From positions 3,906,001-3,970,000 of the forward strand of contig NC_088300.1 of NCBI RefSeq assembly GCF_032854445.1: a stretch of DNA of 64,000 nt. The letters are read 5' to 3'. Position 1 is the stretch's first letter. Every line of letters begins with the position of its first letter. The notes beneath the pieces were generated by a model. It ran no database searches and was not told the origin of the DNA. It worked only from the letters and a program-made list of their open reading frames with translations. The position numbers and the translations under genes were made by a program. Below, piece after piece: positions 15,261-58,950 of this stretch. This DNA is from Liolophura sinensis (lineage: Eukaryota; Mollusca; Polyplacophora; Chitonida; Chitonidae).

Positions 15261-18200
15261 GAGTCAACACAAACTAACATTATATAATCTGATTTCTGAA
15301 TATCTGTTTGTTGAGTTAACTCAGAGGGTAAGTCAGACTTCCATCATGACTGACTGAAACAGAATAAAATTTTGAAAGCTCGGTTTATTTCATTCTTGGG
15401 GCAGACAATTTATTATTCATTTTTAGCTTAATGGTTTGCTTCAAAAACTTCAGTGCTTTTTCCATTGTTCTCAATCTCCTGTCAGGCGGAAAATCTTTTG
15501 GGGAGGGTGGGGTCACTTCACTGATACATGTACCTATCTTTCATTTGAAACGAAAGGACTGTTTTCATGTTTACAAAGTCCTGTATTTTCATTTGCAAGA
15601 AGATGATATGACCTTGCCTTTAACGTATGCTTCTCAAATTATCAGTGCCAAAGTGAGTGCCAGAGATGTGTTTTTTGCCCTTGGATTTTGAGCTGTGTCA
15701 TCATCCGTGTTTTGACACCGACAAGTTGTTTGTGGGAAAAACTACATCTGTTTTGTATTTTGCCTGAAAATTAATGGCAACTATACTGATTTTAGAGCTA
15801 AATTTGGACATTATGCACTTCACATTCACAGCATGTTGCAAACTAATGACAGCAGCTCCTGTGTGTTACGAAGCTTTAATCTATAACTGTATAATTTTGT
15901 TCTTGGATTTGGTTTCAGTTGTTGTTTTTGAACCTTTTTGAACCTTGTTTTAGGACATTCGACTTTGAACCTTCTGTTTGGGTTTACCGAAAAATCAAAA
16001 TATTCTATTACCATGCATATTGATTCAGCAGAATTATTAACTGAATATGGAAAGCCTTTTACATTGTTTTGGAAATGTGTCTTGGAGGCCCCTTTACGAT
16101 TTACAAAGGTATACGAATACTATAGGCGCTTCGAATCGATTTAATTCGTATAGAAACCAATGAAGTAACGTAGGCCTACAAACCGGACATTTCATTTGAA
16201 AGTTAAATAATTTGAAATGGTTGGACAAAGAGGCTTTAGAGATTTGAAATCGGATATGGGGAGAGATTTAGGATGTTCTCACTGTGAATACACCGAGAGG
16301 CAAGTTCTTTGATCGCAAATGTTGGGCCGCGATTGTCAAAGAGGTGGTCGAAGAGACTTATCCCTAAGGTCTGTATTCTTTGGATGGTGAAAGGTCCAAT
16401 GCATGCAAATATGACTTAAACACTTTGTCACGACTGTTTTGTGTCCAGGCTTTGTGCATCTTCTAAAACGAACCTGTTTAGTTACTGTGCGTCTTTAGTT
16501 CTTACTGCATTCACAACATTTATTCCAAAGGCGTATACATATATTGTTCATTTTTTTTTAATAATTTTTAATATCTTTTTTTTTTCGATGAAGTATATTT
16601 GTCTGCATGGTGTCGGATTATGTATAAAGCAGTTCGTCAGTGTTTTTTCCAAGTTTGATTATGGTTGGTCAGTATTGTCCGAACACGACTGAATTCTTAT
16701 TGAGAAAATACGACTAAGCACATGATAGGTTATGCTTGTGTAATGCCCCCATTCTCTACAGTAATGTGCTAATTTCAGTGTTCTCTATCCTGTACATCAA
16801 CGTGTCAAATTATACAAACCCTAATGTTCCCTGGGGGTGTTGTTTTGTCCTCCGCTCTAGATCTTTACAAACTCTTTCCTACGCTAAATAACCAGCCATT
16901 CATACCAACAGTCTACCGCCCCCTCCAATACATCCCAAGGTCGCTGCCAGAAACAACGTCACGAAGAGAGATCTGTTGCCAAGCCTGCATTCATGTCAAT
17001 GAAAATCCAGCTATGAATCCTAAATTTAACCAGTAAGGTTCTAGCTTTAGCAAGGGGTCCGTGGCCACAGTCTGTGGAGATAGAGCTATATATACGAATG
17101 TGGAGTAATTTAACTGCAGGTGTTTTCGGTTAAAAGAGTCGAGTATATGGTTGAAGGAAACTAGATACCATGAGAAACCAATGCATGTATCTCGCCAAGT
17201 TGTAGACAACCTTAAAATTCAAATCCCAATCCTCAGAGGGGATTTTACACCCTGACCGGAAGTGAGCTCACGCGGTTTGTGATGGTTCTATTGCTGGTAA
17301 GAGTTATGCTTATGATTTTGCGAGAGTTTGTTCATCTGTCTGTTTTCTGTCTCTGTCGGCAATTTTACTTAAAATGTTATACACGGATTTGAATAAATTT
17401 TGATTTGATGGCCTTGAGCTACGGGTTAATCCATTACAGTTTGGTGGTGGTCCTTTTCTGCACTATTGTCAGATAGGACAGAAACCCATTGTTCTCATAT
17501 TGTCCTTTTGTTCTCATTATTCACGGAGGGAACGTGTGCATTTTGCTGGGACACTGATTTGCTCCCTCCATATGCACTCTGGTTTAATCTGGAACACTCT
17601 CTATTATCTTCAGTTTACTATATATTTAAATGAAATATTTTGTTAGTCTTTCGCTCAGAAACTTCATTTCGTTGTTGTCATGCGAATTCACTTAAAACAA
17701 TCCTAAAATGCAACATTCAAATTCCAAAGACAAAATGTTTACTTAGTGCATGTTAACCTAATTAATGACCTACTTCTAAAATGGGTCAGCTTGGCAACAT
17801 TATTCTAACTCTAACAATGACAAATGAGGATTTAAAGAGTCAAATGAGAAGATAAATAAATGTAAGTGACCAGTCCACGTGATATACTGTATACCATACA
17901 CGCACGCATGGTTAATGTGTAGACGTGTAGATGGTATAAAATAATAATGATATATTAATGATATAAAAATTCATTCATTCATTTGTGCATGGGACTGTTT
18001 GAGAAGTAAAATACCAGTTTGTTTGAATGTGGATAGAATTGAAATGTTTTCAGCTGAATACAGAGTAAGTTTTGTGATTTGGTTGATCTCTGACTTTATT
18101 TAACACTCTATTACTGAATTAGTATTGTGGTGTATAAGTGAAATATTCGGCGTAAAACACCAATCAAAAAAATAAATCAATCATCTCGATTCCCTGAAGA

Positions 18201-22532: not shown

Positions 22533-23955
22533 ATGGTAGTAACAACGCTTATAGAGACGATGAACGCGCGAAGCGTGAAGAGAGGCGTCTCGTTGTATAA
22601 AGAGAAACGCCTGAACCGATGGCGGGACAAGAGCGATATCGAGCAGGGCAGCATGGTGAGGAAGCTGCCCCCGGAGAGACCCAGGGCTGAGGACCCCATT
22701 CTGATGGCCGAGTTACTCCACCTGAAGAAATACCAGGGAGAGAGAATGGATACCGTCTCAGGTGAGGTCTGACAAACGAATGTCTGTACGGTGTCTTGCT
22801 TTTGTGATTGCAATAAACTGCTATGTAAACTGTAAAATTGCAATGTACATGTAAGTTACCGGTAGCTAATTCCTATGAGTTTATCATGTGAAAATGTATT
22901 TAGAGGTGTTAAGGAGATGGATCATGTCTTTCCATCGAAAAAAAAGTTTCTTCCATGTTTCATGAAATTGTCTTCAAATTATCTGTTAATTGATTTGCAT
23001 GGCGATCTCCCGTAAATATGTTACTAGAAGACGATAGACAATAGCGTGTTATTTCGTTATGCGACGAGCCAATATTTCTGACGCCTAAAAAAAGACTCAG
23101 TTGTGATCATTTTACGAAAGTGTGGTAAAATATTGCAAATGAAGTTCAGTAGGAAACCAGTTCATATTAACACCCTACAAAGGGTTTGATAACTTAGCAG
23201 TGTTTTAAATCGGTTCAAGAACTATCGAAAATTGAAACACTTATCTGCTCGTTTCAGACTGGGAGAACTCGGTTACAGTTGTTCCGATGCTGCACAAGGT
23301 TTGTTTCGAGGGCTATGTGAACACTGCCCAGAAGCTACTGGATGAAGGAGAAGACGTTAATCAGTGTATCGATGATGGACCCAAACTTCTCCGGTTTCTA
23401 CATGGAGGATTCGTGACCTACACTGCTTTCTTTTTACACTCCACTCCACTAATGATGGCCGCTCACCAGGGTCACGTCCCTGTCCTCAAACTGCTGATTC
23501 GCAAAGGTGCAAAAGTGGACCAAAGAGATAGGATGGGCTGTTCGGCATTTTCATTGGCTGTATCCAGTCAGCGGATGGATGCCTGTCGTCTGCTTCTGAA
23601 ACATGGTGCTGACATTAACAACGTCGACCATAAGTATAACTTCACACCTATAATTCTGGCCTGCCGAAAAAATGACACGGAATTAGCGAAGTGGCTGATC
23701 AAGAAAGGTGCAAATGTCAGGTTGACGGACGTGTATGGGAGAAACTCGCTTCATTATGCTGCTTGGAATTATAACCAAGAATTGGTACGCCTGCTGCTTT
23801 CACACCGACTGGATGTGAACGGCCGAGATTTTTCTGGCTGGTCTCCGATTCATTACGCCGTGGGTGAGCTGGAACTCGATCCTACTCTGGAACAGGGAAT
23901 CAGGTCTCTACCCTCCAGGCTGGGGTCTCATGGGAGTCAAGGCCCACATCAATAG
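22533..23955 (+). CDS. Ankyrin-repeat protein, two coding exons (truncated reading frame)
   Basis: Exon A runs from ATG at 22533 (context AGCCATGG, after acceptor TTTGTTTCTCTCAG at 22511-22524) to 22761 before donor GTGAGG. Exon B starts at 23258 after TCGTTTCAG. The split codon joins as Asp and the two parts give 308 codons to the TAG at 23953-23955. The N-terminal ~77 residues are charged and non-repetitive. From about residue 85 come ankyrin repeats with typical helix motifs: STPLMMAAHQGHVPVLKLLI, RKGAKVDQRD, DACRLLLKHGADINNVD, TELAKWLIKKGANVR, NSLHYAAWN, SPIHYAV. About five repeats are visible. Ankyrin repeats mediate protein binding; the specific function is not recognised. The last ~20 residues (from about 23900) look out of frame. 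Ankyrin-like sequence resumes downstream in other frames, so the natural protein was probably longer. Confidence 0.75.
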
Positions 23956-26399: not shown

Positions 26400-27600
26400 A
26401 TGGATCTTGCTCGAACAACTATTCTCTCTAGCATCGGTACACTTGTCACAAAGAGTTTTGTTTTACGTAAGGTTTTCCCACAACTTAGGATTGTTCCTAA
26501 AGCATTTTGGACACAATTATTTTTTAGCAGATACATGTATAACGGTTGACGTTGCCTAGACTTATGTAACTAACGCATGCTTGGTGTTAAATGGAACGCA
26601 TCTGGGCTTATTGTGTACGTCTCTATGCATACTGGTATAGGACAGCAGCAGGTGTTGCCTTGATTGACTTTCCAGATGCTTCTGAATCTGTCAGAGTGAA
26701 TTCAACATATTTTATCTGTTTTCGGATAACTTTAGGAAGTACATCAGGTACCGGTAACCGCAAAGCCACTTTCAAATTAAAGTAGCATCTAAAGGAAATT
26801 ATCAAGGACTATTTGTGACTGTACCGAATCTGAATTCATTCCTTTTGTGCGACTTTTATGGCTGGAGGATTTTGTTTTAATTATTGTTATTTATTTTTCA
26901 TTATTTTTAATTTGTCTAGTGTTATTTGATTTCGTAATATTTGACGATATAAACTTTTGGAATATGTTTGGAGAGCTATTTGAGATGCACATATTTTAGT
27001 TTCTATAGGAACAGATAGATCACTTTTGTCGCAGCCTGTCGTCGAGTGCATTTGCTCTGCCCTACATGTTTATCTCACAACTTGAATTATGAACCCACAT
27101 CCTTTGTAGACGTTATTATGATTTCATTTCTTAATTGGTTGATCACCGATTTGGTTCAAGTTTCAAAACAATTGTTGGGATATTGCTCCGATCTGTTTCA
27201 CAGTCTCTGTTTTTCAATCAATTATATGACTCTTATAGTTTTATTTTCAAGAAAGGATAAGGGTTGTGTTTTATTAATATGCAATACTGAGGAAGTTGTT
27301 GATCATTTAAAATCATGGTCCTACTGTTTTGAGATTGAGAATGTCATTAACAATGACGGCCTTTGTTTTATAACATCATGTACTTTGATGAACTATTGCC
27401 TGGGGCGTTCTTTGTACGGCATATAACGTCTATCCTGTACTAAAATCTACTTTACACAATAAATCTTGGTGCTTCTTCCTCAAGACTGAATTATTTCATT
27501 GTTAAGTAAAACTTGACAAGAGAATGTTTAATGCTAGTATACATGAATGCATTCAGGATGATGGCGGAGGAGGATCATCGCCATATTTCCCGGTTATGGC
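26400..27600. other. Intergenic DNA, no gene recognised
   Basis: A 126-codon plus frame (27046-27426) is Cys/Leu/Ile-rich and AT-driven, without recognisable domain. Nothing else was seen. Confidence 0.35.
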
Positions 27601-29581: not shown

Positions 29582-29657
29582 CGTGAAGTCTTTCTAGTTC
29601 GGTAGATCAATATACAAAACTGGCGATGAGATGAAACGTACCTACGTATAAGGGAAA

Positions 29658-30815
29658 ATGGCAGTTTTCGGGAATCTAGGAGTTTTTGATGAGAGTGTTG
29701 AACTTTTTGAAGATTACACGGACAGATGCGACGCTTTTATGGCAGCGAACGCCATCGAAAACGAGAGGAAGGCAAATTTATTCCTATCGCTCGTCGGTCC
29801 AAAAGCATACAAACTTCTCAAAAACTTGTGTAGTCCAGACGCCCCTAGAACGAATACGTATCAGGAACTGAAGGACCTCTTGAAAGAACATTATGCGCCC
29901 ACTCCAAATGTAATGGCAGAAAGATTTCGGTTTGACAGAGTGTCGAAACAAGGTGACAAGGAATCAGTGGCAGACTTTATTGTCCGTCTGAAGAAATTGG
30001 CTTCTACTTGTGATTACGGCAATTTTCTTTTCGATGCCTTACGAGACAAGCTAGTTTCGGGACTGAATCAGAAGATGTCACGTACTCAGACAAATCTACT
30101 ATCTGTGCGAAATCTTACATTTGACGAAGCAAGAAGGAAATGCCTAGCGGACGAATTAGCGAATGCCGCTAATCGAGAGAGCATGAACGACGGCACGGCG
30201 GAGATAAACCGACTGTTCCCCGGGAGGAGAGGCGGACGTCGAGGCAGAGGACGCGGTCGTGACCAAGCACACCGTAGTACATCCGGTGATGGCTGCAAAT
30301 GCTGTGGTGGGAGAAACCATCGTACTGGAGAATGTCGACTGAGAGACGCTGAGGGTTATGGGTGTAGACAGCGAGGACATATCAAGGCCATGTGTCCGAA
30401 AAGTGATAACACAAATTCTAACAGTGGTGGAAATACCGGCAGCAGAGGTACAAGAGGCGGTCGTGGACATTCGCAAAGTAAGTTCAAATCAAGAAATTCA
30501 GCGAAATACGTGGACATTTCAAATGATGCTGAAGAGTCAAGAGACAGTAATTCTGAATTTGATCATGATGAATTTGGACTCTACGGTAATTATAATGTAA
30601 ATCAAACTCAAAGCATGAAACCTATTAAAGTAGATATTACTGTAGGACATTCTAACATACAAATGGAGCTTGATACAGGAGCCTCACGCTCGACTGTATC
30701 TGAAACATTGTATAAAAATTGTTTAACAATGTTCCCGCTCAGAAATGTAAACATCACATTGCGTAGTTATACAATGAACCTGTACCTATTTTGGGAGAAA
30801 TTAGAGTGCCTGTAA
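29658..30815 (+). pseudogene. Gag-protease part of the retrotransposon
   Basis: A 385-codon frame starts at ATG 29658. The gag capsid-like region covers roughly residues 1-180. A basic Arg/Gly stretch follows (GRRGGRRGRGRGRD), then a CCHC zinc knuckle (C-x2-C-x4-H-x4-C, CKCCGGRNHRTGEC near residue 213). A second knuckle (GYGCRQRGHIKAMC) has lost its first cysteine, Gly standing in its place. The aspartic protease motif LDTGASRSTVSE lies near residue 338. The frame leaves the family pattern near 30773 through a one-base loss and stops at 30815. In the shifted frame an additional stop lies at 30818-30820. The product would package and process the element's RNA and proteins in an intact copy. 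Confidence 0.85.
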
Positions 30816-30847
30816 AGTAACGAGAAAACCCACTTGTAGAACTTGAC

Positions 30848-31702
30848 TTGATTGTTGTAAAAGGTCAGAAACCATGTTTATTGGGTAGAGATTGGTTAAA
30901 ACATATCAAATTGGATTGGCAAAGTATTTTCACTGTAAATGAAGTTGGTCTAACAAAGAAGTTACCTAAACATGTACCGCAGTCTGATGATTTTTCTGAT
31001 TGTTTCAATGAGCTGTTACGACAGAACAGTGTACTGTTTACGTATGAAGGTAATGGTATTAAAGGTTTTAAAGCATCATTGGCATTGAAAGATAATGTTA
31101 AACCAGTATATCAGAAGGCTAGACCTGTACCATATTCTTTGCTAGGAGATGTTGAAAAAGAATATGACCGATTGATTGAATCAGAGATTTTGTATCCAGT
31201 TGACAGTTGTGAATGGGCTTCACCGACAGTCCATGCTGTGAAACCTAATAAGTCTATTAGAGTGTGTGGTGTTTATAAAGCAGTTAATGAATTGATTAAA
31301 GATGATGGATATAAATTACCAAATACTCAAGATCTGTTTGCTAAGATATCCCAGTATGGTTCACAACCAAAAGTGTTTTCAAAACTAGATTTGACTAGTG
31401 CATTTAATCAGCTTTATTTAGATGATGAATCTGCTAAGTTGCTTGTGTTAAATACTCACAAAGGATTGTTAGCAACTAAATGGTTATGTTTTGGTGTCAA
31501 AACAGCGCCTTCCATTTTTCAGGCTACTATGGATAAAATATTGTCAAATATTGATCACGTGCTATGTTACATGGATGATATATTTGTAGCAACTGAAACT
31601 GAGAAAGAGCATTTTGTTGTGTTAGAGAAAGTATTTTCTAAATTGAGGAAACACAATGTCAAGTTAAATGGAGAAAATGTGAATTTTTCAAAGAAAGTGT
31701 GA
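30848..31702 (+). pseudogene. Protease end and reverse transcriptase
   Basis: The frame opens with the end of the protease (KPCLLGRDWLKHI) and continues into reverse transcriptase. Motifs in order: VYQKARPVPYSLLGDVEKEY, SPTVHAVKPNKSIRVCGVYK, FSKLDLTSAFNQL (first catalytic Asp), FGVKTAPSIFQATMD and the catalytic YMDDI box near 31567. It ends at a TGA (31700-31702) caused by a one-base loss in an A-run near 31675. Similarity is to Ty3/Gypsy RT of Mag-type elements. Confidence 0.9.
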
Positions 31703-32280
31703 CATTTTTGGGTCATAAGCTGTGTGCTGAGGGTATAAAACCATTGCAAGGCAAAACAGATGCAATTAGAAATGCACCTAGACCACAGAATGTGTCAGAA
31801 CTTAAGTCATTTCTTGGAATGTTGAATTACTATGGTAAATTTGTACCAAATCTGTCATCAAATTTACATGCTTTGTATTCGTTACTTAACAAGTCAGTAA
31901 TGTGGAAATGGACTAAAGAGTGTGAAACTTCTTTTCAATATGCTAAGACTGTTTTAACAGGTGATAGCGTGCTTATGCACTATAATCCTAAGATGCGTTT
32001 AGTATTAAGTGTAGATGCAAGTCCTTATGGATTAGGAGCTGTGTTAAGCCATAAGTTGAATGATGGTTCAGAAAGACCTGTAGCTTATGCATCACGTACA
32101 TTAAGTTGTGCAGAGAAGAACTATGCACAAATAGAGAAAGAAGCATTGGCAATTGTGTATGGAATTAAGAAATTTCATTTGTACTAGTTTGGTAGGAAAT
32201 TTACTCTTGTAACTGATCATCAACCCCTAACAAGAATTTTTGGTTCCAAATCTGGTATTCCTGCATTAGCAGCAGCTAGG
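31699..32280 (+). pseudogene. RT connection and RNase H
   Basis: In the next frame, FLGHKL marks the RT thumb and connection, followed by SFLGMLNYYGKFVPNLS. RNase H follows with its acidic residues visible: VLSVDASPYGLGAVLSH, then QIEKEALAIVYGIKKFH, then after an in-frame TAG at 32185-32187, LVTDHQPL. The stop lies inside RNase H, so no full-length Pol can be made without readthrough. Confidence 0.88.
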
Positions 32281-33114
32281 ATGCAGCGCTGGGAATTGTT
32301 GCTTAGTGGATATTCGTATGATATTGTCTACAGATCTTCAGAAAATAACGCAAATGCAGATATGTTAAGTAGATTACCAGTGGATGATTCTCACACTGCA
32401 GATCCTGATGAAATGTATATTTGTAGTACAGTATTAAGCGATCTACCTGTGACAGCTAAACAGATAGCTGAATTTTCATGTAAAGATGCTACATTATGTA
32501 AAGTGTTAGATTTTACATCTTCAGGTTGGCCAAATTATTGTACTGATACGACTTTGCAACCATATTGGTCAAAACGAGATGAATTGTCAATTGATGATGG
32601 TTGTATATTATGGGGTAGGAGAGTAGTTGTACCAACTAAACTTCAAGAAATGTTGTTAAATGAATTACATGATGGTCATCCCGGCATGTGTAGGATGAAA
32701 GCTTTGGCTAGATCTTTCGTCTGGTGGCCTGGATTAGATCAAGATATAGAAGACTTAGTCAGAACATGTCCGAGTTGTGTAGAATCACAAAAAGTGCCTA
32801 AGTCTGTACCTTTGTTATTGTGGCCTTGGGCTACAGAGCCATGGCAGAGAATTCATGTTGATTTTGCTGAAATCGATGGTCAGCAATTTTTTATTGTAGT
32901 CGACAGTTATTCTAAGTGGTTAGAATGTTTTCCAATGTCAAGTACCACAGCAAGTGCTACTATTACTGTTCTTCGGTCTTTGTTCGCAAGGTATGGTTTA
33001 CCGCAACAAATTGTTTCAGACAATGGACCCCAGTTCATTGCTGATTTGAATAGCCCATGTTCTGTCATGTTACAGAAATACTCCTCACACTACGACTGGT
33101 ATTACGCCAGCTGA
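32281..33114 (+). pseudogene. Integrase, N-terminal and catalytic part, deleted
   Basis: This shares its frame with the preceding RNase H piece. After the tether come the HHCC zinc-binding region (NELHDGHPGMCRMKALARSF, ending CPSC) and the catalytic core with the first two acidic residues (HVDFAEIDG and VSDNGPQF). The expected stretch with the third catalytic residue Glu is missing. Sequence jumps after PQFIAD near 33045 to a region typical of the integrase core end, in another frame. The internal deletion, roughly 100 codons by family comparison, inactivates the enzyme. Confidence 0.88.
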
Positions 33115-34830: not shown

Positions 34831-37800
34831 ATGACGACGATTCGGCCATTCACTTGTGATGATCTGTTCAAATTTAACAATGTGTAAGTTTTCTTCCGAT
34901 CAACCTTCAACGTTCATGCCGCAGACCATTCAGAGTCCAATTATCGTGTTGGTATACATGTGTGAATGAGGATAAATGATTTTCTCTTTGGAATGTGTCA
35001 CACCCCAAAACGGCTAGATCCACAGAGAAACAGATGAGTAAAACACGTGTTAGCCTAAGTAAGGCCAGGGGTATGGAATTAAACTTTTATTTCCTGGGTT
35101 AAGACACTCGGTTAACTCATGTGAATTATTCCATTTTCATTGCAAATTTGCATAATAATCACTGGAATCGTTTGCTCTTCTTTTTCAGAAACTTGGATCC
35201 CCTGACGGAGACTGTATCCTTGCATTACACAAGTATTAGTAAATATCAGAATAAATACATGTAGGGCTACTTAAATATGTTTATTTATTTATGTATTCAT
35301 TTGATTGGTGTTTTACGCCGTGCTCAAGAATATTTCACTTATACGATGGCGGTCAGCATTATGGTGGGTGGAAACCGGGCAGAGCTCGGGGGAAACCCAC
35401 GACCATCCGCAGGTTGCTGAAAGACCTTCCCACGTACGGCCGGAGAGGAAGCCAGCATGAGCTAGACTTGAACTCACAGCGACCACATTGATGAGAGACT
35501 CCTGGGTCATTATGCTGCGCTAACGCGCTAACCAACTGAGCCACGGAGGCCCCGCTACTTAAATATACCAGATGATACTGATTTTATAGTATCATAACTA
35601 GTGATGGCCAATTCTTTCTATGGGAGTATTTTATTTTGCATTGAACCCTGGAGAAGTACAGCCTCAGGTGACCAGTTTACTCCTGTCTATGACAATTCCA
35701 TTATAGAGAGAGGAGTGAAATAGCCACTTGGGGCTTGAAGTTTTACAGCAGCATTGTGTTGTATTAGAGTACTTAGCTATCCTGTTTGATTTACAGAGAG
35801 TTATAGAGTGAGACATAATGGAATTGGGCAGGTACATTACTATAGATGTTTAGCTACATATGCAGGGCTAAGAATTACAGAATGAAAGGCCATACTGTTC
35901 AGTGAGACACCAGTTTTAAAAAGATGATGCCTGGCACTGCCTTTCAAGGTACTGCTATAATTATTCACTGCAGCGTCCACATGGTGCTAACATACCCCAC
36001 ACAATGTACCCCGCTTCTCCAACAGAAACCTACCATTGCCTGTAAATTGAAATACTGAAGTATTGCCTGGTTTTGAATTGGACTGGCACAGTAGCATTCA
36101 CTCTGTAGCTCTCTGTCCATCATCATATATAAAGTGGTAGAGCTACAGTAACATATCAAGTTCTGTGAATATGATACAAAGGGAGACACAGCACCAGATC
36201 ATTTAAATACAAGTAACGCTTATTTATACTGGGGCTTACTGTGGCCAAGGCGGTTAGTGTACCAGCATGGCGCAGTGACCCAGGGGCCTCTCACCAATGC
36301 ACTATGAGTTAAAGTCCAGCTCATGCTGGCTTCTTCTGTGGTTGTATGAGTAAGGCCTGCTAGCAACCTGTGGATAGTCGTGAGTTTCTCCAGGGCTCTG
36401 CCCAGTTTCCTCCCATCATAATGCTGGTTGTCGTATAAATGAAATATTCTTGAATATGGTGTAAAACACCAGTCAAAAAATAAATAAATGTCTTTATAGT
36501 GACTCATGGTTAAAGGGGAAAATTTAGCACAAATAAGAATTAATATACATGGGATTTTGGATTCTAGTGTTTTTTGAAAGGGGAGAACACTAACAGCTAA
36601 ACAGTTTATTCCGATTTGGTATGTACAGTAAATTATGGCATTCAAAAGTTGATATTTTGAAATATTTTATGTATGACAATTCAGGAATTTTTACATTCAA
36701 TTGACTTTTATGTCACATTTTGTGTTTTATTTGTTAACCTTATCCCTGTCATCAGTATGGACTACCATTCTATCTTCAGTACTTAGCCCACTGGCCTGAG
36801 TACTTCCAGATTGCTGAGTCTCCAACAGGGGAAGTCATGGGCTACAGTAAGTACAAGTCTATCGGCTGCTAATGCTGACCTTGTATATAACTTAGTATCC
36901 TGTATCTGAGCGACAGACCCGTCAGAGTCCTAAAGGGAGATAACCATCCATCCTAAAGGGAGATATTTCAGGAATTGAAGGACAGCTAAACCAGTAATGC
37001 ATTTGTCCTATTCAGAAATAACATTTTATTGCTTGTTCATGGCATAGGTTTTCATTTGACCAGTAATAAACTTGGAAGAAGTTAAAAAATAAAAAACTGT
37101 CTATATAAGGGAGAGCTATGTGGCCTGACAGAGGAGGTGTTGTTTCTGTTTTGAGCATACACTGATAGGCTGAATCCATTTGATTTTCTGTGATTAACAG
37201 CAATAGAGAACCCACTCATACAATAGCTATGTGCACAATTTTTCAATTCGTTCTCATGTATCCTATAATCCACAATATGCATTTGTTTAGAAGTTTAAAC
37301 AGATTTTTTTTTTAATACGGACATAATTATACTCATTGTTATTGTTTTCCTAAGCCAGTGTGGTAGACAGTGCCATGTTCCCTTTTTTGTTTCACACATT
37401 CAGTGTAGAGTGAATATATGTGTGAAATATCAGAATGTATCGTCTCTCTTCTGACTAAATGATAAGGAACTATTTACTACCATAACCCTTCTCCTCATAT
37501 CACCTATCAGCCACCTGATACGCTGAAGAGGAAGTCGCTTTCATTTTTGTGAAAGGCAGCTTCCAGTTCTACCAGATCATGATAGGTGGATCCCTGGCTT
37601 ACACATGATGACCATCTGGCCCAGTTGGAAACTGCTTTACTGCAGGCTGTCATCCAGGCTGTAATGCTTTAAGAGATACCAAATGAGGTTTTTATGGGTC
37701 TGTTGGTGAGAATCACCAGAGGCCCATGATAGAGGCATGAAAAATTGTGAAGAAACTGCCGGAAGTTGTTTCACTGAAATCAAGTCATCCTAATATCGCT

Positions 37801-40750
37801 CAAAATGTATGGTTTTAATTCTACACCGATCTTCAGTTATTTGTGCTATGTTAAAGTGTCATCGAGGGTACAGTTTTCAACGAGTACAATTATCGGTGAT
37901 TTCTGAGGAGAGAAGCAAATGCAATGAAATACGATCACGAGAACAGCCAGTGTTCAGAAACACTTCAGATTTATCCTATATACTGCCAATAAATAAAGAA
38001 CACATAATAAATTTTTGTCTTCTAATGTAGACCTACATATGGATTTAGAGTCACACATGTATCATGATTTGATCCCAAAACGGCAGTTTCGACAGGTAAA
38101 GAAAATTACCAGTCGCATTAGGCAAGTTACCATAGAATGAAATAATACTGCAACCCCTGCTATCAAAACAAAATGGAAAGGTAAAGTTGTCAATGAGTGA
38201 GTTTTTGGAATAAACCCAGTAGGCCTACAGGTTGAGGTGTAAGAAATAAATGTAGGCCTATGAGCGTGATTCAGATTCATTCCTCGTGAGGAAGAGCTGA
38301 AGTAATTAACTTACTCTAAAATGTTCTGACAAGTTGTAATGACATAGATGTATGCACATGTATGTACATGTATGTCTTTCGATTTTCCCAACCCTCTTCA
38401 ACCAGTCAACTTCACACTTTCCAGGTGTCTTGTTGGGGACTCAAAATAGTAAATGTGTACTGTGGTAGGCTTTCGCCTGAAAATTATCTGTAGCACTGCT
38501 TGATCCCTTGGGTTACAGCCCAATATCTGATCTTACTAATTGCGTGAATGCTAACAGTCTTATTATACAAGGTTTTTCATGGTCCGTTGAGACATTATCT
38601 GTTAAATTGTGGAATGAGCTGTTCGTAATCGTTTGCTGTATGTGATGAACATTTGGATATAATCCTGAAAAGATTGAAAAAAGGTTGAGAGACTGTACAT
38701 GTATTTTATTTGTCCTTGTCATATTTGTACTTTTGAGATACAGCTATACAGTTTAAGGATCAAAACATGTATTGTATTAGGATATGTAGCCTTGGTCTGC
38801 TGCCACATACGGCAGTGGTACAAATAATACCAATAATAATAAATAATAAGATTAATTAAGTTCTCTGTGTACATTTGTTGATTTGTTGACAGTAATGGGA
38901 AAAGCTGAAGGTCATAATGAGTTATGGCATGGCCATGTGACAGCCTTGACAGTGGCCCCAGAATACCGCAGACTGGGACTTGCAGCCAAACTGATGAACA
39001 GCCTTGAGGAGATATCAGAGAGGTAATGTGGCTGCAGGACGAACTGACGGCTGGAAATCCTAACACTTAACAGTCTTAATCATATGACTGAATCCTGCTC
39101 CAGCAAGTAGCTCATTACATCTGGTGGTTGTGCTGTGTAAATACATAGCTTTAATACAGACCTTCAAGGTTCAGGGGCCAATTAAAAAAAAAATCTGTTA
39201 AATTTTAAAGCTTTAATACACTGTATACCTGTACAGCTTGATTTGTAGCTCCAGAAGTTTAAGTCTATTTTAACCTATCACCAGTTAGTTTTAGCCCCTA
39301 GGATCAGAAAGTTTACATTAACTTACAAATTTTGAGTCAAGCCATGCTGTGTTGAATAAGCCCTTGCTATGCAGCTTAGGTTGCTCCTTGTACTAGTGCT
39401 TTCTTAGTGCAGAAGGTGGTACAGTTGAACATAGAGAAGAAGTGTGAGAGGATAGAAATGTTACCAAGAGGCCAATTTTGACAAAAGCAGCTTGTGGAAG
39501 TATATGTCTTCCTCTGTACATGGGATGTGAGTGTTACTGGTAATTCTACATGAACACTGGTTTTGCAGGAAGCATTGTTACTTTGTGGACCTGTTTGTGC
39601 GTGTCTCTAACGAGGTAGCTGTCGAGATGTACCGTGGGCTGGGCTACACGGTCTACAGGAGGGTCATCGAATACTACTCTGGGGGAGTTGACGAGGATGC
39701 TTTTGGTCAGTCACCAACAAATACTCTAACAGATACCTCATACACAGAGTAATACATTTTCCATCGACAGAATTTTGCATTTATTCCAGAGTTGCAACCT
39801 TTGTTAAAGGAAACGAAAATTTTTAAAAATGACACTATAGGCAGAAAAGAGCACATTTTTTTCTATCTGGTGGTGTCTACTGCATAATTTTGCGAGTTTT
39901 CCTCGCCATACACGTAAAGCCTGAAAACGGCAAATTGCTGAGTCCATCGCGTCCTCCATCCTAACACCCTGTAATTTATGTGCTCAGCCAATGAGAGTGA
40001 TTAAAACTGCCGGCTTGTGCCTGTAAACTCGGAATCCACGTCCAACAGCCCGGTTTCCCGATCGTCAAGCGGAAAATGAACTGTACTGTTCGCTACCTTA
40101 TGGGAAGAAGAATTCTACCGGAAATGTAAACGAACTGCACTTCGGTGGTTTCCGACGGTAATTCTCCTCCTAACACACAAGACTTCAGAACTAGTTCATA
40201 AACAAAATGGAGTCACCCACAGCGGATTTTGGCGCTGACTTTATATTAGAATTTTTTTTATGACATGCACCTGCGAGGAAGTGCATACTCATTTCAATGG
40301 TATTTGATTGATATTTAAATTTTCTTTTCCTTTAAGGAATAGTGGCTTCAGATGAAGTTTCCAAGCCTTCATCAATAAGGTTACATGTTTAAACCCAGCC
40401 TTAACTGGCTTGGCAGCATTTTTTGTTTTAGGAGGATTGTCAGATACCTGGCAATGTGCAGTGGTTTCCTTCTTAATCATCTCTGACTGCCGCCAGATAA
40501 GTCAAGAATTGTTGATTACGTTGTTATAAGATGACGCCAGTGTATATAAGTTTGGTGAATATGTTTTGTAGCAAATATTAAACCTCTTGAATAATTCCTG
40601 GTGAAAATTTGTGAGACAAATTTCTGTACGGTATTTCCTATAAAATCTTGTTTATATTTTGCAGATATGAGGAAGGCGCTTTCACGTGACAAAGAGAAGA
40701 AATCAGTGATACCGTTGCCTCATCCTGTTCGACCGGAAGAGTTGGAATAA
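34831..40750 (+). CDS. NAA20: NAA20, catalytic subunit of NatB N-terminal acetyltransferase (6 exons)
   Basis: NAA20, with NAA25, acetylates N-termini starting Met-Asp/Glu/Asn/Gln on ribosome-associated nascent chains. Exons: 34831-34883, 35189-35213, 36756-36846, 38893-39022, 39569-39705, 40665-40750. The joined CDS is 522 nt, 173 residues; human NAA20 has 178. It starts MTTIRPFTCDDLFKFNN. Exon 3 gives YGLPFYLQYLAHWPEYF. Exon 4 carries the GNAT acetyl-CoA loop RRLGLAAKLM after GHVTALTVAPEY. Exon 5 gives FVDLFVRVSNEVAVEMYRGL. The end is IPLPHPVRPEELE. All introns are GT..AG with consistent phases; exon 2 is a 25-nt micro-exon whose donor (GTATCC) is weak. Intron 2 contains two inverted SINEs. 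No break or missing key residue was seen. Confidence 0.95.
35277..35553 (-). mobile_element. Full-length MetaSINE-like SINE in NAA20 intron 2, minus
   Basis: The most complete copy in the window. On the minus strand it starts GGGGCCTCCGTGGCTCAG, GTTAGCGCG, then AGGAGTCTCTCATCAATGTG, GTGAGTTCAAGTC (B box) and the Meta-like block. It ends ACGGCGTAAAACACCAATCA in mirrored form (plus strand TTGATTGGTGTTTTACGCCG) with a T-rich start on the plus strand. It lies 64 bp downstream of micro-exon 2. Confidence 0.9.
36231..36489 (+). mobile_element. MetaSINE-like SINE in NAA20 intron 2, plus
   Basis: GGGGCTTACTGTGGCCAAGG, CGGTTAGTGTACCAGCATGG is the tRNA-like head. GAGTTAAAGTCCAGCTCATG covers the B box, and the tail ends GTGTAAAACACCAGTC plus AAATAAATAAATG. 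It is inverted to the copy at 35277-35553, with about 680 bp between them. Confidence 0.88.
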
Positions 40751-40752
40751 CT

Positions 40753-40908
40753 ATGACTCCGATGGATTACTATAGGAACCAAACCAACAACATGCTGATG
40801 CTTGGAGTTTTAGTGTTTGCCATTTCTGTTTTTGTTCTAACGCTGACGATCATCTTTCAGTCTGTAAGTGTAAAATACCCACCACGTCGATCCCTGTCAG
40901 ACTTGTAG
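40753..40908 (+). CDS. Putative single-pass membrane microprotein (51 aa) just downstream of NAA20
   Basis: An ATG two nucleotides after the NAA20 stop opens 51 codons to TAG 40906-40908. The N-terminus MTPMDYYRNQTN contains an N-glycosylation sequon (Asn9-Gln-Thr). Residues about 14-35 form one hydrophobic segment (MLMLGVLVFAISVFVLTLTI), long enough for a membrane helix. The C-terminus is basic then Ser-rich (KYPPRRSLSDL), which suggests a cytosolic C-terminus by the positive-inside rule. A donor-like GTAAGTG (40864) lies in frame after Ser37, so the segment could also be an exon continuing elsewhere. No family is recognised. It would share the NAA20 mRNA, translated by reinitiation or from an alternative transcript; chance is not excluded. 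Confidence 0.45.
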   Translation: MTPMDYYRNQTNNMLMLGVLVFAISVFVLTLTIIFQSVSVKYPPRRSLSDL

Positions 40909-41141
40909 TGGAACCAAGCAACCATCGAATCAAAGAGTAGTAACTATCCTGTCATCGCTTAAATCTTTAGGAGTTATCTCCCTTGAAATTTGTACTGGTT
41001 GCCTTATTCTGCCAAACCCCTCAAGTTACGAGTCGCTTGCAAACAGTGGTACTTTTAAAAAATAATGTATGAAACCATAGTGTCCATCGGAGTATAAACA
41101 TTGTGTTAGGGAATGAGTTCTTTGTATTTTGTGGGAAATGA

Positions 41142-41147
41142 AATAAA
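41142..41147 (+). terminator. Polyadenylation signal AATAAA downstream of NAA20
   Basis: AATAAA about 390 nt after the NAA20 stop and about 235 nt after the microprotein frame. It is the first canonical signal noticed downstream and the likely 3' end of the shared transcript. Confidence 0.5.
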
Positions 41148-41465
41148 ATTCACATTTTCTATTCATATGTGTACTGTTTGTCGTTACAAAATTGTTGTAT
41201 TCCGAGGTGAAAACTGTGTTTTCTGGTCGCTTGTTTGCCCATTCGCTTTGTCTGGACATCAAATACGAGCAGTGGTATCAACAGCTAGGTGTTCGATGTG
41301 AAAACACAGATATTTCTCCTAATTAAACACTGTTTGATTCTTTGTTGCTTAACCTCATACTCACTAATTGCTCCCTCTTTGGTAAAGAAAATCGGAGTGC
41401 CCTGCGTAATCCACTGACCTTGAGCAAATTACTATCGAACTTTCTCGTCATAAGTGACGTATAGG

Positions 41466-43149: not shown

Positions 43150-44280
43150 CTGGGAAGTTAATAGGTCACCGTTAATTCGGAGGTTAGAGTCAGTCAGAAC
43201 ATCAATCACCTGGCTTCTTTTAGTGATTTTGATCATTTTCATTTATTACTTCAACACATTTAAACCTACTTTTCCCACCATTATTTAAAAGAATAAATTT
43301 TTTTCAAGACGCTACCATTCATATGTTTATTTTTGTGGGGTTTTTTGTGTGTGTTATTTCTGTGTATAATATATTTGTAATCTTATCTAACATCACCGAG
43401 TGTGTACCTTACTCTCATTTTCGCCTTAATCCCTGGAAGTTTCTTGTCAATGTCCCATGCATAACTTTCCGCCCATATTGAACTTGATCGCCGGCAGTAA
43501 ATGAAACATGCCGATAATAAGATTTATCGTGTAATGAAATATAGATTTGTTCAGCTTAAGAACTATGAGATAAGAAATCGTCGCATGGTGGCCACAGCGT
43601 CAGTGTGAGGTTGGGTTGACAAGTACGAATATGAGATGGCTAACACACGATTGTCTTTAATATCGCTGAAGACTAAGACAAATTATTTCGAAGGCAGGCA
43701 TACAGCCGTGCAGGAACCTTTACATATATTACACCAGCGGGCAGCCATCACACGGCTAATTCATGCCGGTTATGTTATCAGTTACACAGTCGGTACACGC
43801 TGTTTAACCCACGCCCCACGTCGTTATCGTTAACTGCGCCACAACACAGCCAGTGTGGGATGGATTGCGTTTTAACGACACTGGAGTTGAGCTTGTCTGT
43901 CTCAGTTGCCCGTGAGGCGGTGATAATAGTTCTGCAGGAATACAGCTGCCTCTTCAAATCGGACGACTGTTCGTTCGTTCTGACATTGTTACCATTTTTG
44001 TTTGTGGTGGGTGTCTGTAATTCTGCCTTGAACAAACAAGCCAGCAGGGCCTGATGGGCTTATTTCTACCCGCTGTGTGTTTGTGTTTTTGGTATATATA
44101 CCGACAGTCGGCTGCGGCAGGTATACTGTGATCACTGGAAGTGTCCACCATTGTTTTTCAGGCGCCATTTTTCCCGATCGTCTTGATCTTCGTTCGCTAG
44201 TTCAAGATGCATACAGCTGATACTTGTCACAGAGTCCAAGTTTCCGAAATTGTTCACGATGACCGAGCAATATAATATAT
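43150..44280. other. Intergenic DNA, no gene recognised
   Basis: Overlapping short frames on both strands (62-85 codons) without recognisable features. Confidence 0.35.
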
Positions 44281-45961: not shown

Positions 45962-46128
45962 TCATCCATCACTACCACTCAGTCTGTCACTCTTCATTCG
46001 TAACAACCAGCCAATTTGTCAGTCTTCATTCGTAACCACCACCCAATTGGCCAGTCTTCATTCGTAACCACCACCCAATCGGCCAGTCTTCATTCGTAAC
46101 CACCACCCAATCTGTCAATCTTCAATCA
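45962..46128 (+). repeat. 32-bp minisatellite, left block
   Basis: About five units of GCCAGTCTTCATTCGTAACC, ACCACCCAATCG with minor changes. Separated from the larger right block by about 300 bp of unrelated sequence. Confidence 0.9.
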
Positions 46129-46429
46129 AAGCGCGACTGAGATACTTGTTTAATTGTTTTTTGACGTGGAACACATTCATGGAAAACGAATTTGAGCTTT
46201 GATATGGAATTCATGCCTGGAATATCCACTGTCTGCCCGGCATCATTGAAAAATGATGACCGCTTCTCTCTTGTGTGTTACCCGCTGTATTTCCTATTTG
46301 TATAATTTCTTTGGGAGCTAGTGTTAAACGTTGTTTTGGAAATGGATCTTGCGATTATCGACTTGGAACGCCCTTTACGGACTACGAATGGTGTATGAAT
46401 GTCGGACATGACGCTTATATTCAACCGTC
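46129..46429. other. ~300-bp non-repeat segment interrupting the 32-bp array
   Basis: Unique-looking DNA between two blocks of the same array. It contains AACGTTGTTTTGGAAAT, a 17-mer also present near 12791. No terminal repeats were identified. Confidence 0.45.
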
Positions 46430-47560
46430 ATCAGCACTCAATCTGTCAGTCTTCATTCGTAAACACCACCTAATCTGTCTGTCTTCATCCGTAACCACCA
46501 CCCGATCTGCCTGTGTTCATCCATAACCACCAACCAATCTGTCAGTCTTCATCCGTAATCACCACACAATTTTCATCCATAACCACCACCCAATCTGTCA
46601 GTCTTCATCCGTCACCACCACTCGATCTGCCAGTCTTCATCCGTTACCACCACTCAATCTGTCAGTCTTCATCCGTTACCACCACTCAATCAACCAGTCT
46701 TCATACATAACCATCACCCAATCTGTCAGTCTTCATCCATAAACACCACTCAATCCGTCAGTCTCCATCCGTAACAACACTCAATCTGTCAGTCTTCAAC
46801 CATAACCACCACACAGTCTGTCAGTCTTCAACCATAACCATCACTCAACCCACCAGTCTCCATCCGTAACCACCACTCAATCTGTCAGTCTTCGTCCATA
46901 ACCACCGCCCAATCTGTCAGTCTTCATCTATAACCACCACCCGATCTGTCTGTGTTCATCCATAACCACCAACCAATCTGTCAGTCTTCATCCGTAATCA
47001 CCACACAATTTTCATCCATAACCACCACCTAATCTGTCAGTCTTCATCCATAACCACCACTCAATCCGTCAGTCTCCATTCATAACCACCACTCAATCTG
47101 TCAGTCTTCATCCATAACCACCACACAATCTGTCAGTCTTCCACAGTAATCATCATTTAATCTGTCAGTCAATATCCATAAACACCACCCAATCTGTCAT
47201 TCTCCAACCGTAACCACCACACAATCTATCATTCTCCAACTTTAACCACCACTGTCAGTTTTCATCCATAATCACAACCCAATCCGTTAGTATTCATGCA
47301 TAACTCTCACCCAATCTGTCAGTATTCACCCATAACCCCCACCCACCCTGTCAATCTTCATCCATAACCACCACCCAGTCTGTCAGTATTCATGCGTAAC
47401 TCCCACCCAATCTCTCAGTATTCATACATACCCACCACCCACTGTCAATCTTCATCTATAACTACCACCTAATCCGTCAGTATTCATACAAAACTCCCAC
47501 ACAATCTGTCAGTGTTCATCCATAACCACCACCCAATCTGTCAGCATTTATCCATAACCA
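46430..47560 (+). repeat. 32-bp minisatellite, right block, about 35 copies
   Basis: Units follow CAGTCTTCATCCATAACCAC, CACCCAATCTGT. A truncated unit (CACACAATTTTCATCCATAA) flanked by the same variants appears twice, 439 bp apart (about 46562 and 47001), indicating that a long segment of the array was duplicated. Degeneracy rises toward the right end. Confidence 0.9.
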
Positions 47561-47689
47561 GCATCCAGTCATACGGAGTCGTATTAATTGCCACCATTCA
47601 ACCCTTCAGTTTTAATCCAATACCGATACCGGGTGGTAGTTATGATTTAAACACTAGTGCCCAAGGATTGGGTGGTAGCTGGGATTATT

Positions 47690-48029
47690 ATATACAGTGG
47701 AGAGTCCGCTTCGAGAGCGATAGATCTTGGATCAATCCTGGGTGGAGTCACGCCTAAGACTTTAAAAGAAGAAGTTGTAACTTCCACACTTGGGGTTCAG
47801 CATGAAGGGGATAGTACAACTACTGGTTGACCCGTAACAGTATAATGGCTCGGGCGGGACGCCTTACTTGCCTTCGTCTCAGTGAAGCAGCACTAGATAA
47901 AAGGGCGGTGGAAATCCGTCCTGCAACAAGGAGGTACATTACATATACGCTAAGGATTCCTTCGTCGTCATATGACTGAAAAATTGTTGAGCACGACGTT
48001 AAACCCCAATCACTCACTCACTATTACAT

Positions 48030-51780: not shown

Positions 51781-52301
51781 TCAGTATCTATACGGTAGGA
51801 ATTTGTACTTCCGCGAGACACGGCGAGACTTGTAGTGCATCCGCTTTCGCCTTTTGTTCCTCTTTCGTCGCTTTTGTCGGCGATTTTTTCGCCTGCTGCG
51901 CTTGCCATTAACTTCACTGCTGTCGCGTTGCCGCCCTTCGACCCGCTCGTCGAACTTGGCCAGTTTGTCCTGCGACAAGGTTTTCTCCTGTTTGGATTTC
52001 TTCTTCTTCCTCCGCTTGATCTTGCGCTTGTTCGTCCGTCTCTTCGGTATGTTTTGTTCTCCTGCTTGAATCTCGTCTTCCGTGCACGCGTCCTTGTGGC
52101 GCACTTTGAGCCTCTTGCCCAGGTTGCAGGCGGCGATGCGTAGGTGGCAACGGGAATGGTACGTCAGGTTATCCGTACCACACACCTCCTTGCGGCGCCG
52201 CCTGCAGGAATACACACTAGGGCACGTGCACAAAGGTAAACCCTGCATGTTTTCCATACAGATTTTATATTTAGGGCAATTAACGCTATCACATGGGCTG
52301 T
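51781..52301 (-). CDS. Follistatin/Kazal-domain protein with basic tail, last coding exon (partial gene)
   Basis: The minus-strand exon starts after acceptor TTTATATTTACAG (AG at 52302-52303) in split-codon phase and ends at TGA 51781-51783. Its first ~70 codons hold ten cysteines in follistatin-module order: an EGF-like half (PCDSVNCPKYKICMENMQG, LCTCPSVYSC) and a Kazal half (EVCGTDNLTYHSRCHLRIAA, ending in Cys). The ~100-residue tail is very rich in Lys and Arg (RRTNKRKIKRRKKKKSKQEK, KRRKRNKRRKRMHYKSRR), as in heparin- or matrix-binding tails. Such modules occur in secreted proteins such as SPARC, follistatin-like and agrin families, where they bind growth factors or inhibit proteases. The signal peptide and other domains must lie in upstream exons, at higher coordinates; none was recognised up to 64 kb. 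The exact family is not assigned. Confidence 0.8.
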
Positions 52302-52435
52302 CTGTAAATATAAACAAAAAAGAATGGATTAGTCTTGCACACAATTGTCAACAATTGACCTAGAAAAATTATTTTGTTTTACACAATGAAACCATGATGA
52401 CATGTTAGTATGGCAACACGTTTTACTTTTTATTC

Positions 52436-57544: not shown

Positions 57545-58950
57545 TCTATGTGGAACCAGAGGTGTGTACTGGCTTTCAGGCAGGATCTCCATTAGGAACA
57601 GCAATGTGTACTGACTGTCAGTGTGCACTGGGTGTTAGGAAGGATCTCAATTCGGAACAGCAGTGTGTACTGCCTGTCAGGGTGTACTGGGTGTCAGGAA
57701 GGATCTCCATTAGGAACAGCATCGTGTACTGGCTGTCAGTGTGCACTGGGTGTCAGGGAGGATCTCAATCCGAAACAGCAGTGTGTACTGGCTGTCAGTG
57801 TGCACTGGGTGCCAGGAAGGATCTCAGTTGGGAACAGCAGTGTGTACTGGCCGTCTATGTGCACTGGGTGTCAGGAAGGATCACGGTTCGGAACAGCATT
57901 GTGTACTGGCTGTCAGTGTGCACTGAGTGTCAGGAAGGATCTCAATTCGGAACAGCATTGTGTACTGGCTGTCAGTGTGCACTGGGTGTTAGGGAGGATC
58001 TCAATTCAAAACAGCACGGTGTACTGGCTGTCAGTGTGCACTGGGTGTCAGGAAGAATCTCATTTCGGAACAGCAGTGTGTACTGGCTGTCAGTGTGCAC
58101 TGGATGTCAGGAAGGATCTCTATACGGAACAGCAGTGTGCACTGGCTGTCAGTGTGCACTGAGTATCAGGGAGGATCTCAATTCGAAACAGCAGTGTGTA
58201 CTGGCTGTCAGTGTGCACTGAGTGTCAGGAAGGATCTCAATTCGGAACAGCATTGTGTACTGGCTGTCAGTGTGCACTGGATGTCAGGAAGGATCTCTAT
58301 ACGGAACAGCAGTGTGCACTGGCTGTCAGTGTGCACTGAGTATCAGGGAGGATCTCAATTCGAAACAGCAGTGTGTACTGGCTGTCAGTGTGCACTGAGT
58401 GTCAGGAAGGATCTCAATTCGAAACAGCAGTGTGTACTGGCTGTCAGTGTGCACTGAGTGTCAGGAAGGATCTCAATTCGAAACAGCAGTGTGTACTGGC
58501 TGTCAGTGTGCACTGGGTGTCAGGGAGGATCTCTCTTCGGAACAGCATTGTGTACTGGCTGTCAGTGTGCACTGGGTGTCAGGAAGGATCTCTCTTCGGA
58601 ACAGGATTGTGTATCTCCATTTGGAACAGCTTTGTGTACTGGCTGTCAGTGTGCACTGTGTGTCAGGAAGGATCTCTCTTCGGAACAGCACTGTGTGCTG
58701 GCTGTCAGTGTGCACTGAGTGTCAGGGAGGATCTCTATACGGAACAGCATTATGAACTGGCTGCCAGGACGGCTCCCTATCCTGAACAGCATTGTGTACT
58801 TACTGGCTGTCAGGGTGCACTGGGTGTCAGGAAGGATATCTCTTCGGAACAGCATAGTGTGCTGGCTGTCAACGTGCACTGGGTTTCAGGGAGGATCTCT
58901 ATTCGAAACAACATTGTGTACTGTGTGTCAGAGAGGATCATTATACGGAT
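57545..58950 (+). repeat. 59-bp minisatellite, about 24 copies, with 177-bp higher-order units
   Basis: The unit reads TGTGTACTGGCTGTCAGTGT, GCACTGGGTGTCAGGAAGGA, TCTCAATTCGGAACAGCAT. Since 59 is not a multiple of 3 and the unit contains few stops, up to 228 codons stay open in each plus frame, with a 59-residue period (SVHWVSGRISIRNSSVYWLS). A three-unit block at about 58097-58240 is repeated almost unchanged 177 bp later. Units near 58600-58620 and 58740-58800 are truncated or expanded. The frames are repeat products, not evidence for a gene. Confidence 0.92.

Follow-up and report, generated by a model that had tools for sequence, protein, structure and literature searches.

An open reading frame of 51 codons starts two nucleotides past the stop codon of NAA20 in the chiton Liolophura sinensis, and we tentatively read it as a genuine second cistron of the NAA20 mRNA, which would yield a 51-residue single-pass membrane microprotein by inefficient termination-reinitiation. 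In our judgement, and by no calculation, this reading has nearly an even chance of being right; the co-transcription, the restart of translation, the membrane topology and the function of the product are what we infer from the DNA. The main rival is that the NAA20 3' UTR carries the open frame by chance and no selected protein is made, an explanation that is credible and carries a probability clearly short of even. The window (the whole stretch of DNA analysed, 64,000 nt of contig NC_088300.1, positions 3,906,001 to 3,970,000) gave a single match when searched against its own genome.

The host gene lies on the plus strand between 34831 and 40750 and comprises six coding exons, assigned from the match to human NAA20 and the splice boundaries, with a PDB match in addition for exon 5 and direct reading of the sequence for exon 6:
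34831-34883, plus strand, NAA20 exon 1, coding part
35189-35213, plus strand, NAA20 exon 2
36756-36846, plus strand, NAA20 exon 3
38893-39022, plus strand, NAA20 exon 4
39569-39705, plus strand, NAA20 exon 5
40665-40750, plus strand, NAA20 exon 6, coding part, with the TAA stop codon (40748-40750) at its end

The spliced reading frame of 522 nt encodes 173 amino acids, which are 81% identical over their whole length to human NAA20, and the exon 5 stretch alone finds human NAA20 in the PDB with an E value of 1.2e-14. Conservation extends to the C-terminus, with 24 identities to human in the final 28 residues, and the search of the chiton genome with NAA20 gave five matches, all of them at this one gene. 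Judged by its sequence the protein is NAA20, the catalytic subunit of NatB, the identity holding over the whole protein, and the first-pass annotation, which had named the gene and placed its stop codon at 40748-40750, is thereby confirmed. Neither NAA20 alone nor its alignment with the human protein found relatives in the prokaryote and viral collections, which were searched for stray animal DNA.

Several other features were recorded in the window. A retroelement (29652-33111, plus strand) whose three frames, each scanned by itself, match gag, reverse transcriptase, and RNase H plus integrase is located about 1.7 kb 5' of NAA20 exon 1. An ankyrin-repeat frame of 239 codons (23236-23952, plus strand; Pfam Ank, 6.9e-35) and a frame encoding a Kazal-type protease inhibitor domain (51784-52347, minus strand; 1.4e-9) were found, as were two stretches of repeats. 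One consists of about 36 copies of a 32-base repeat (46435-47567) and coincides with a strong GC skew of -0.38 at 46001-48000; the other is a long tandem array of a 59-base unit in about 18 copies (57562-58931, also read as period 177), which lies inside two frames (228 and 210 codons) without a match in Pfam. The palindrome GTAGGCCTAC is present in two copies, at 16170-16179 and 38219-38228, with 0.02 expected by chance.

Directly behind the NAA20 stop codon the sequence reads CT (40751-40752) and then ATG, which opens 51 sense codons closed by TAG (40906-40908), exactly as first described, to the base:
40753-40908, plus strand, frame of 51 codons with its stop codon, a candidate single-pass membrane microprotein, read directly from the sequence
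40762-40764, plus strand, second in-frame ATG (offset 533 in the spliced sequence, counted from the NAA20 start), from which translation would yield a Met-Asp N-terminus
40792-40860, plus strand, hydrophobic segment, codons 14-36, from Kyte-Doolittle values and codon-position counts

The predicted product, MTPMDYYRNQTNNMLMLGVLVFAISVFVLTLTIIFQSVSVKYPPRRSLSDL, opens with a polar N-terminus (13 residues), continues with the hydrophobic segment (14-36) and closes with a basic tail (15 residues). Its highest Kyte-Doolittle mean over 19 residues is 2.79 (residues 17-35), while the remaining two forward frames of the hydrophobic stretch reach 1.22 and 0.69 (stops omitted). Within the segment T occupies 74% of the second codon positions against 22% of the first and 39% of the third, a distribution that is to be expected of any hydrophobic reading frame. 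The claim of one strong hydrophobic segment followed by basic residues thus stands, with K41, R45 and R46 on its C-terminal side. The Asn-Gln-Thr sequon said to precede the segment is also present (N9-Q10-T11), yet only two residues, N12 and N13, separate it from the segment. As a rule N-glycosylation needs about 12-14 residues between sequon and membrane segment, and by this rule the sequon would probably be too near to be glycosylated. According to the positive-inside rule the basic side of a membrane segment faces the cytosol, and therefore the predicted topology is N-out/C-in with the tail cytosolic. On its sequence the product has what is looked for in a single-pass membrane protein, one strong hydrophobic segment of helix length with a charge bias. 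As to the start contexts, ATG 40753 has A at -3 and ATG 40762 has G at +4.

Whether such a frame is expected by chance was approached with shuffled, simulated and real sequences. Among 5000 dinucleotide shuffles of 40751-41165, an ATG fell in the first 30 nt in 2328 and opened an ORF of the same length (51 or more codons) in 87; none combined such an ORF with an equal membrane segment. Two further source stretches, shuffled in the same manner, reached the length in 22 of 3000 and 32 of 1500 cases and the length with a membrane segment in none, and over the three source stretches together the frame with its segment was reproduced in none of 9500 shuffles. This result argues against a chance frame, as do the polar N-terminus and basic tail that flank the segment as they do in real single-pass proteins, and the special site of the frame, whose ATG is placed two bases past the stop codon of a conserved gene and inside its predicted mRNA.

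The other controls point both ways, the simulated frames at the 3' UTR make-up and the receptor genes speaking for a real frame. With the conditioning on open frames being approximate only, a hydrophobicity of 2.79 was reached by 956 of 1,000,000 simulated runs of 51 open codons at the dinucleotide make-up of the 3' UTR, by 428 of 1,000,000 at the make-up of the window, and by 4.7% when the base make-up was that of the hydrophobic stretch. UTR sequence rich in T is easily read as a hydrophobic peptide. In 77,148 bases of receptor-gene flanks from the same genome, which may include real exons, one of the 128 ATG-initiated ORFs of 51 or more codons equals the hydrophobicity of the frame, a rate above that predicted by the simulations. 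The 30 receptor genes (17 of the loci on the minus strand, read on their proper strand) include 15 in which an ATG occurs no more than 30 nt from the stop codon and one in which an ORF of 51 or more codons starts in that range (57 codons, hydrophobicity 0.83); a membrane segment like that of the 40753 frame follows the stop codon in none of the 30. In the window the frame at 40753 is the only one of 127 ATG-initiated ORFs of 51 or more codons to reach 2.79, and among 385 open stretches one other equals or exceeds its value, a plus-strand stretch of 68 codons at 26793-26996 with a hydrophobicity of 3.22 and the TTTTAATTAT repeat. That stretch and a plus-strand ATG frame of 52 codons at 43323-43478 (hydrophobicity 2.66) are reminders of the chance background.

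Taken per gene, the probability of a chance case is from about 2e-5 (87/5000 x 956/1,000,000) to 1.4e-4 (87/5000 x 1/128). The genome, published under the name Liolophura japonica, holds 28,010 predicted protein-coding genes (PMC11068029); the species was renamed Liolophura sinensis by correction (PMC12441733). About 0.5-4 chance cases are therefore expected genome-wide, and a reader who scans many windows picks the most protein-like of them. The frame exceeds chance at a single gene, yet not decisively across the whole genome of genes.

Codon usage says almost nothing on the matter, as the codon choice of the frame does not discriminate coding from noncoding sequence, which leaves room for a chance frame. 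The synonymous codon log-likelihood ratio is 1.48, with means of 2.29 for coding and -0.58 for noncoding segments and a spread of about 2.7 in each; 36% of the 242 coding segments, which double as the training set, score at or below this value, and 22% of the 58 noncoding segments, which overlap in steps of 7 bases, score at or above it. NAA20 itself attains just 1.09 per 51 codons.

As was the case at first reading, no family could be recognised, since no Pfam or NCBIfam profile passes its cut-off with the microprotein. The best Pfam match is PsbT (17.3 bits against a cut-off of 22.4), TolR being also among the families below the cut-off, and the best in NCBIfam scores 15.8 against 162. The PDB gave nothing better than E 0.99, the phage records one match at E 8, the viral contigs no relative, and the chiton genome nothing else better than E 0.16; this last match (39%, on C5, with one internal stop) was set aside as hydrophobic similarity. 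The lack of a significant relative in these collections is consistent with a chance frame; the sets searched were Pfam, NCBIfam, PDB, phage, viral and prokaryote sets together with the chiton's own genome, the only animal genome among them, and the absence of relatives in them says nothing against the frame. Literature searches on NAA20 with microprotein, NAA20 with bicistronic, and mollusc bicistronic smORF brought up, among the papers listed, no report of the frame in titles and the beginnings of abstracts.

The presence of the frame on the NAA20 mRNA depends on the 3' end of the transcript and on its splicing:
40864-40870, plus strand, in-frame GTAAGTG at codon 38, a possible but unsupported splice donor, from sequence reading and an acceptor scan
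41142-41147, plus strand, AATAAA as the predicted poly(A) signal, TG-rich on its 3' side, from a motif scan

The AATAAA, which had been noted as lying within 240 nt of the frame, is found 234 nt 3' of the frame stop and is the sole AATAAA or ATTAAA in 40665-41321, the next being ATTAAA at 41322. The only such signal in this range thus falls beyond the frame, and the NAA20 mRNA, with this predicted end, most probably contains it. The suggestion of an alternative spliced form from the GTAAGTG at 40864 found no support. Acceptors 3' of this donor are modest, with at best 14 of 20 pyrimidines, and a hypothetical join to the acceptor ending at 40970, the best placed, would give 37 + 33 = 70 codons. 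On the exon side of that acceptor is a 12-base motif, which we take to be one known from molluscan repeats; it has one match in the window, on the minus strand, with 0.14 expected and one found in 13 of 100 shuffles. Trans-splicing that would separate the two cistrons was also set aside, as no pyrimidine-rich acceptor was seen by eye directly 5' of ATG 40753, and none of the matches listed in the literature search was by its title a paper on chiton operons.

A further reading makes the frame the C-terminus of an alternative NAA20, which would close with a membrane anchor and arise from an alternative exon 6 acceptor or a -1 frameshift. The open frame that contains 40753 is indeed free of stops from 40690, spans 72 codons and overlaps the final 61 bases of NAA20, and, by a count made by hand, the AGs that end at 40696, 40699 and 40741 would be in register with it. 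By eye, however, these AGs have no pyrimidine tract before them and there is no classical slippery heptamer, and the fusion would lose much of the C-terminus that is so well matched in human NAA20. We consider this origin very improbable.

For a second cistron on the NAA20 mRNA the way in which ribosomes would reach it is of consequence. In the proposed course, ribosomes would finish NAA20 at the TAA and a minority of 40S subunits would remain on the mRNA, shift by 2 nt and begin again at AUG 40753, or else at AUG 40762; the microprotein would insert with its N-terminus out and the basic tail in the cytosol, and its output would be low and track the NAA20 mRNA. The NAA20 coding sequence contains 14 AUGs, six of them in frame (the NAA20 start included) and several with A or G at -3 or G at +4, because of which leaky scanning is very unlikely. 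Nor do known aids to reinitiation appear: TGGGA, the core of the TURBS motif, is absent from the final 150 nt of spliced NAA20 coding sequence, so that no TURBS of the viral kind can be recognised, and the RNA structure across the junction of NAA20 and the frame is not unusual, folding no better than shuffles (z -0.21). A Drosophila study, as cited in PMC4528330, tied effective translation of the second cistron to a first cistron that lacks in-frame AUGs, a condition from which NAA20 departs. According to the review PMC5972666 reinitiation after a long ORF is presumably very rare.

The same rarity speaks for a further possibility, that the microprotein is real and made from a transcript of its own, either by way of an internal, alternative promoter or first exon of NAA20 with splicing to exon 6, or through a start within exon 6. 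AUG 40753 would then come early, as exon 6 holds just one AUG (40667) before it, and no restart after a long ORF would be needed; of 159 Drosophila dicistronic loci, moreover, just 45 depend on dicistronic transcripts alone for both proteins (PMC4528330). Such a promoter or first exon is not known, though, and we regard this origin as unlikely. If the protein is made, the simplest route is low-level reinitiation at the AUG that lies 2 nt away, and after it comes an mRNA starting inside the gene. The earlier proposal that the NatB subunit and a membrane microprotein come from one transcript thus retains part of its support, in the frame, its position, its segment and the predicted 3' end beyond it, and is weakened where translation of the second cistron is concerned.

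Dicistronic architecture has precedent in the approximately 2.5% of Drosophila protein-coding gene models that include a polycistronic transcript (PMC4528330). The dicistronic genes of FlyBase resemble the chiton case in that two frames are proposed per processed mRNA, some conserved ORFs having only 20-30 residues, and differ in resting on cDNA, RNA-seq and cross-species conservation (PMC4528330), whereas the chiton frame is read from the DNA. In Drosophila sloth1/sloth2 (SMIM4 / C12orf73) the second cistron starts 5 nt past the first stop codon (2 nt here) and encodes a small membrane protein with one segment; the first cistron there, itself a small ORF, has a start codon that is not optimal, and leaky scanning was supported in reporter assays (PMC9681215), while NAA20 has 173 codons. 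A bicistron of the sloth type, in which few or weak AUGs precede the second start, does not fit the AUG count of NAA20. Influenza B M1/BM2 and caliciviruses are alike in working only, in that ribosomes restart beside the stop codon that closes a long ORF. At the M1/BM2 junction, where stop and start overlap (UAAUG) and TURBS is needed, about 10% of the ribosomes that terminate start again; the UGGGA core is described for caliciviruses (PMC3035654 and PMC5972666). Human STREMI-SLC35A4 likewise places a microprotein and a larger partner on one mRNA, except that the small frame comes first there (PMC13303939, in its main text); in that main text, on human bicistronic transcripts, NAA20 has no occurrence.

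If real, the frame would join the animal dicistronic microproteins, which are already known, and would be unusual among them for its NAA20 partner and the long first cistron. The start at 40762 gives only a suggestion of a closer tie, in that NatB acetylates Met-Asp N-termini and the product begun there would carry such a terminus. That the microprotein is evolutionarily kept and tied to the NatB catalytic subunit by the shared mRNA, so that through the 40762 start one message would give by reinitiation the enzyme together with a substrate or partner bound to the membrane, seems to us improbable.

Small frames inside 3' UTRs are easily overlooked in annotation. If the frame next to NAA20 is not conserved, it would be an instructive case of a protein-like chance frame in a 3' UTR; if it is conserved, it would provide a natural test of restart after a full-length cellular ORF and name a new partner candidate for NatB.
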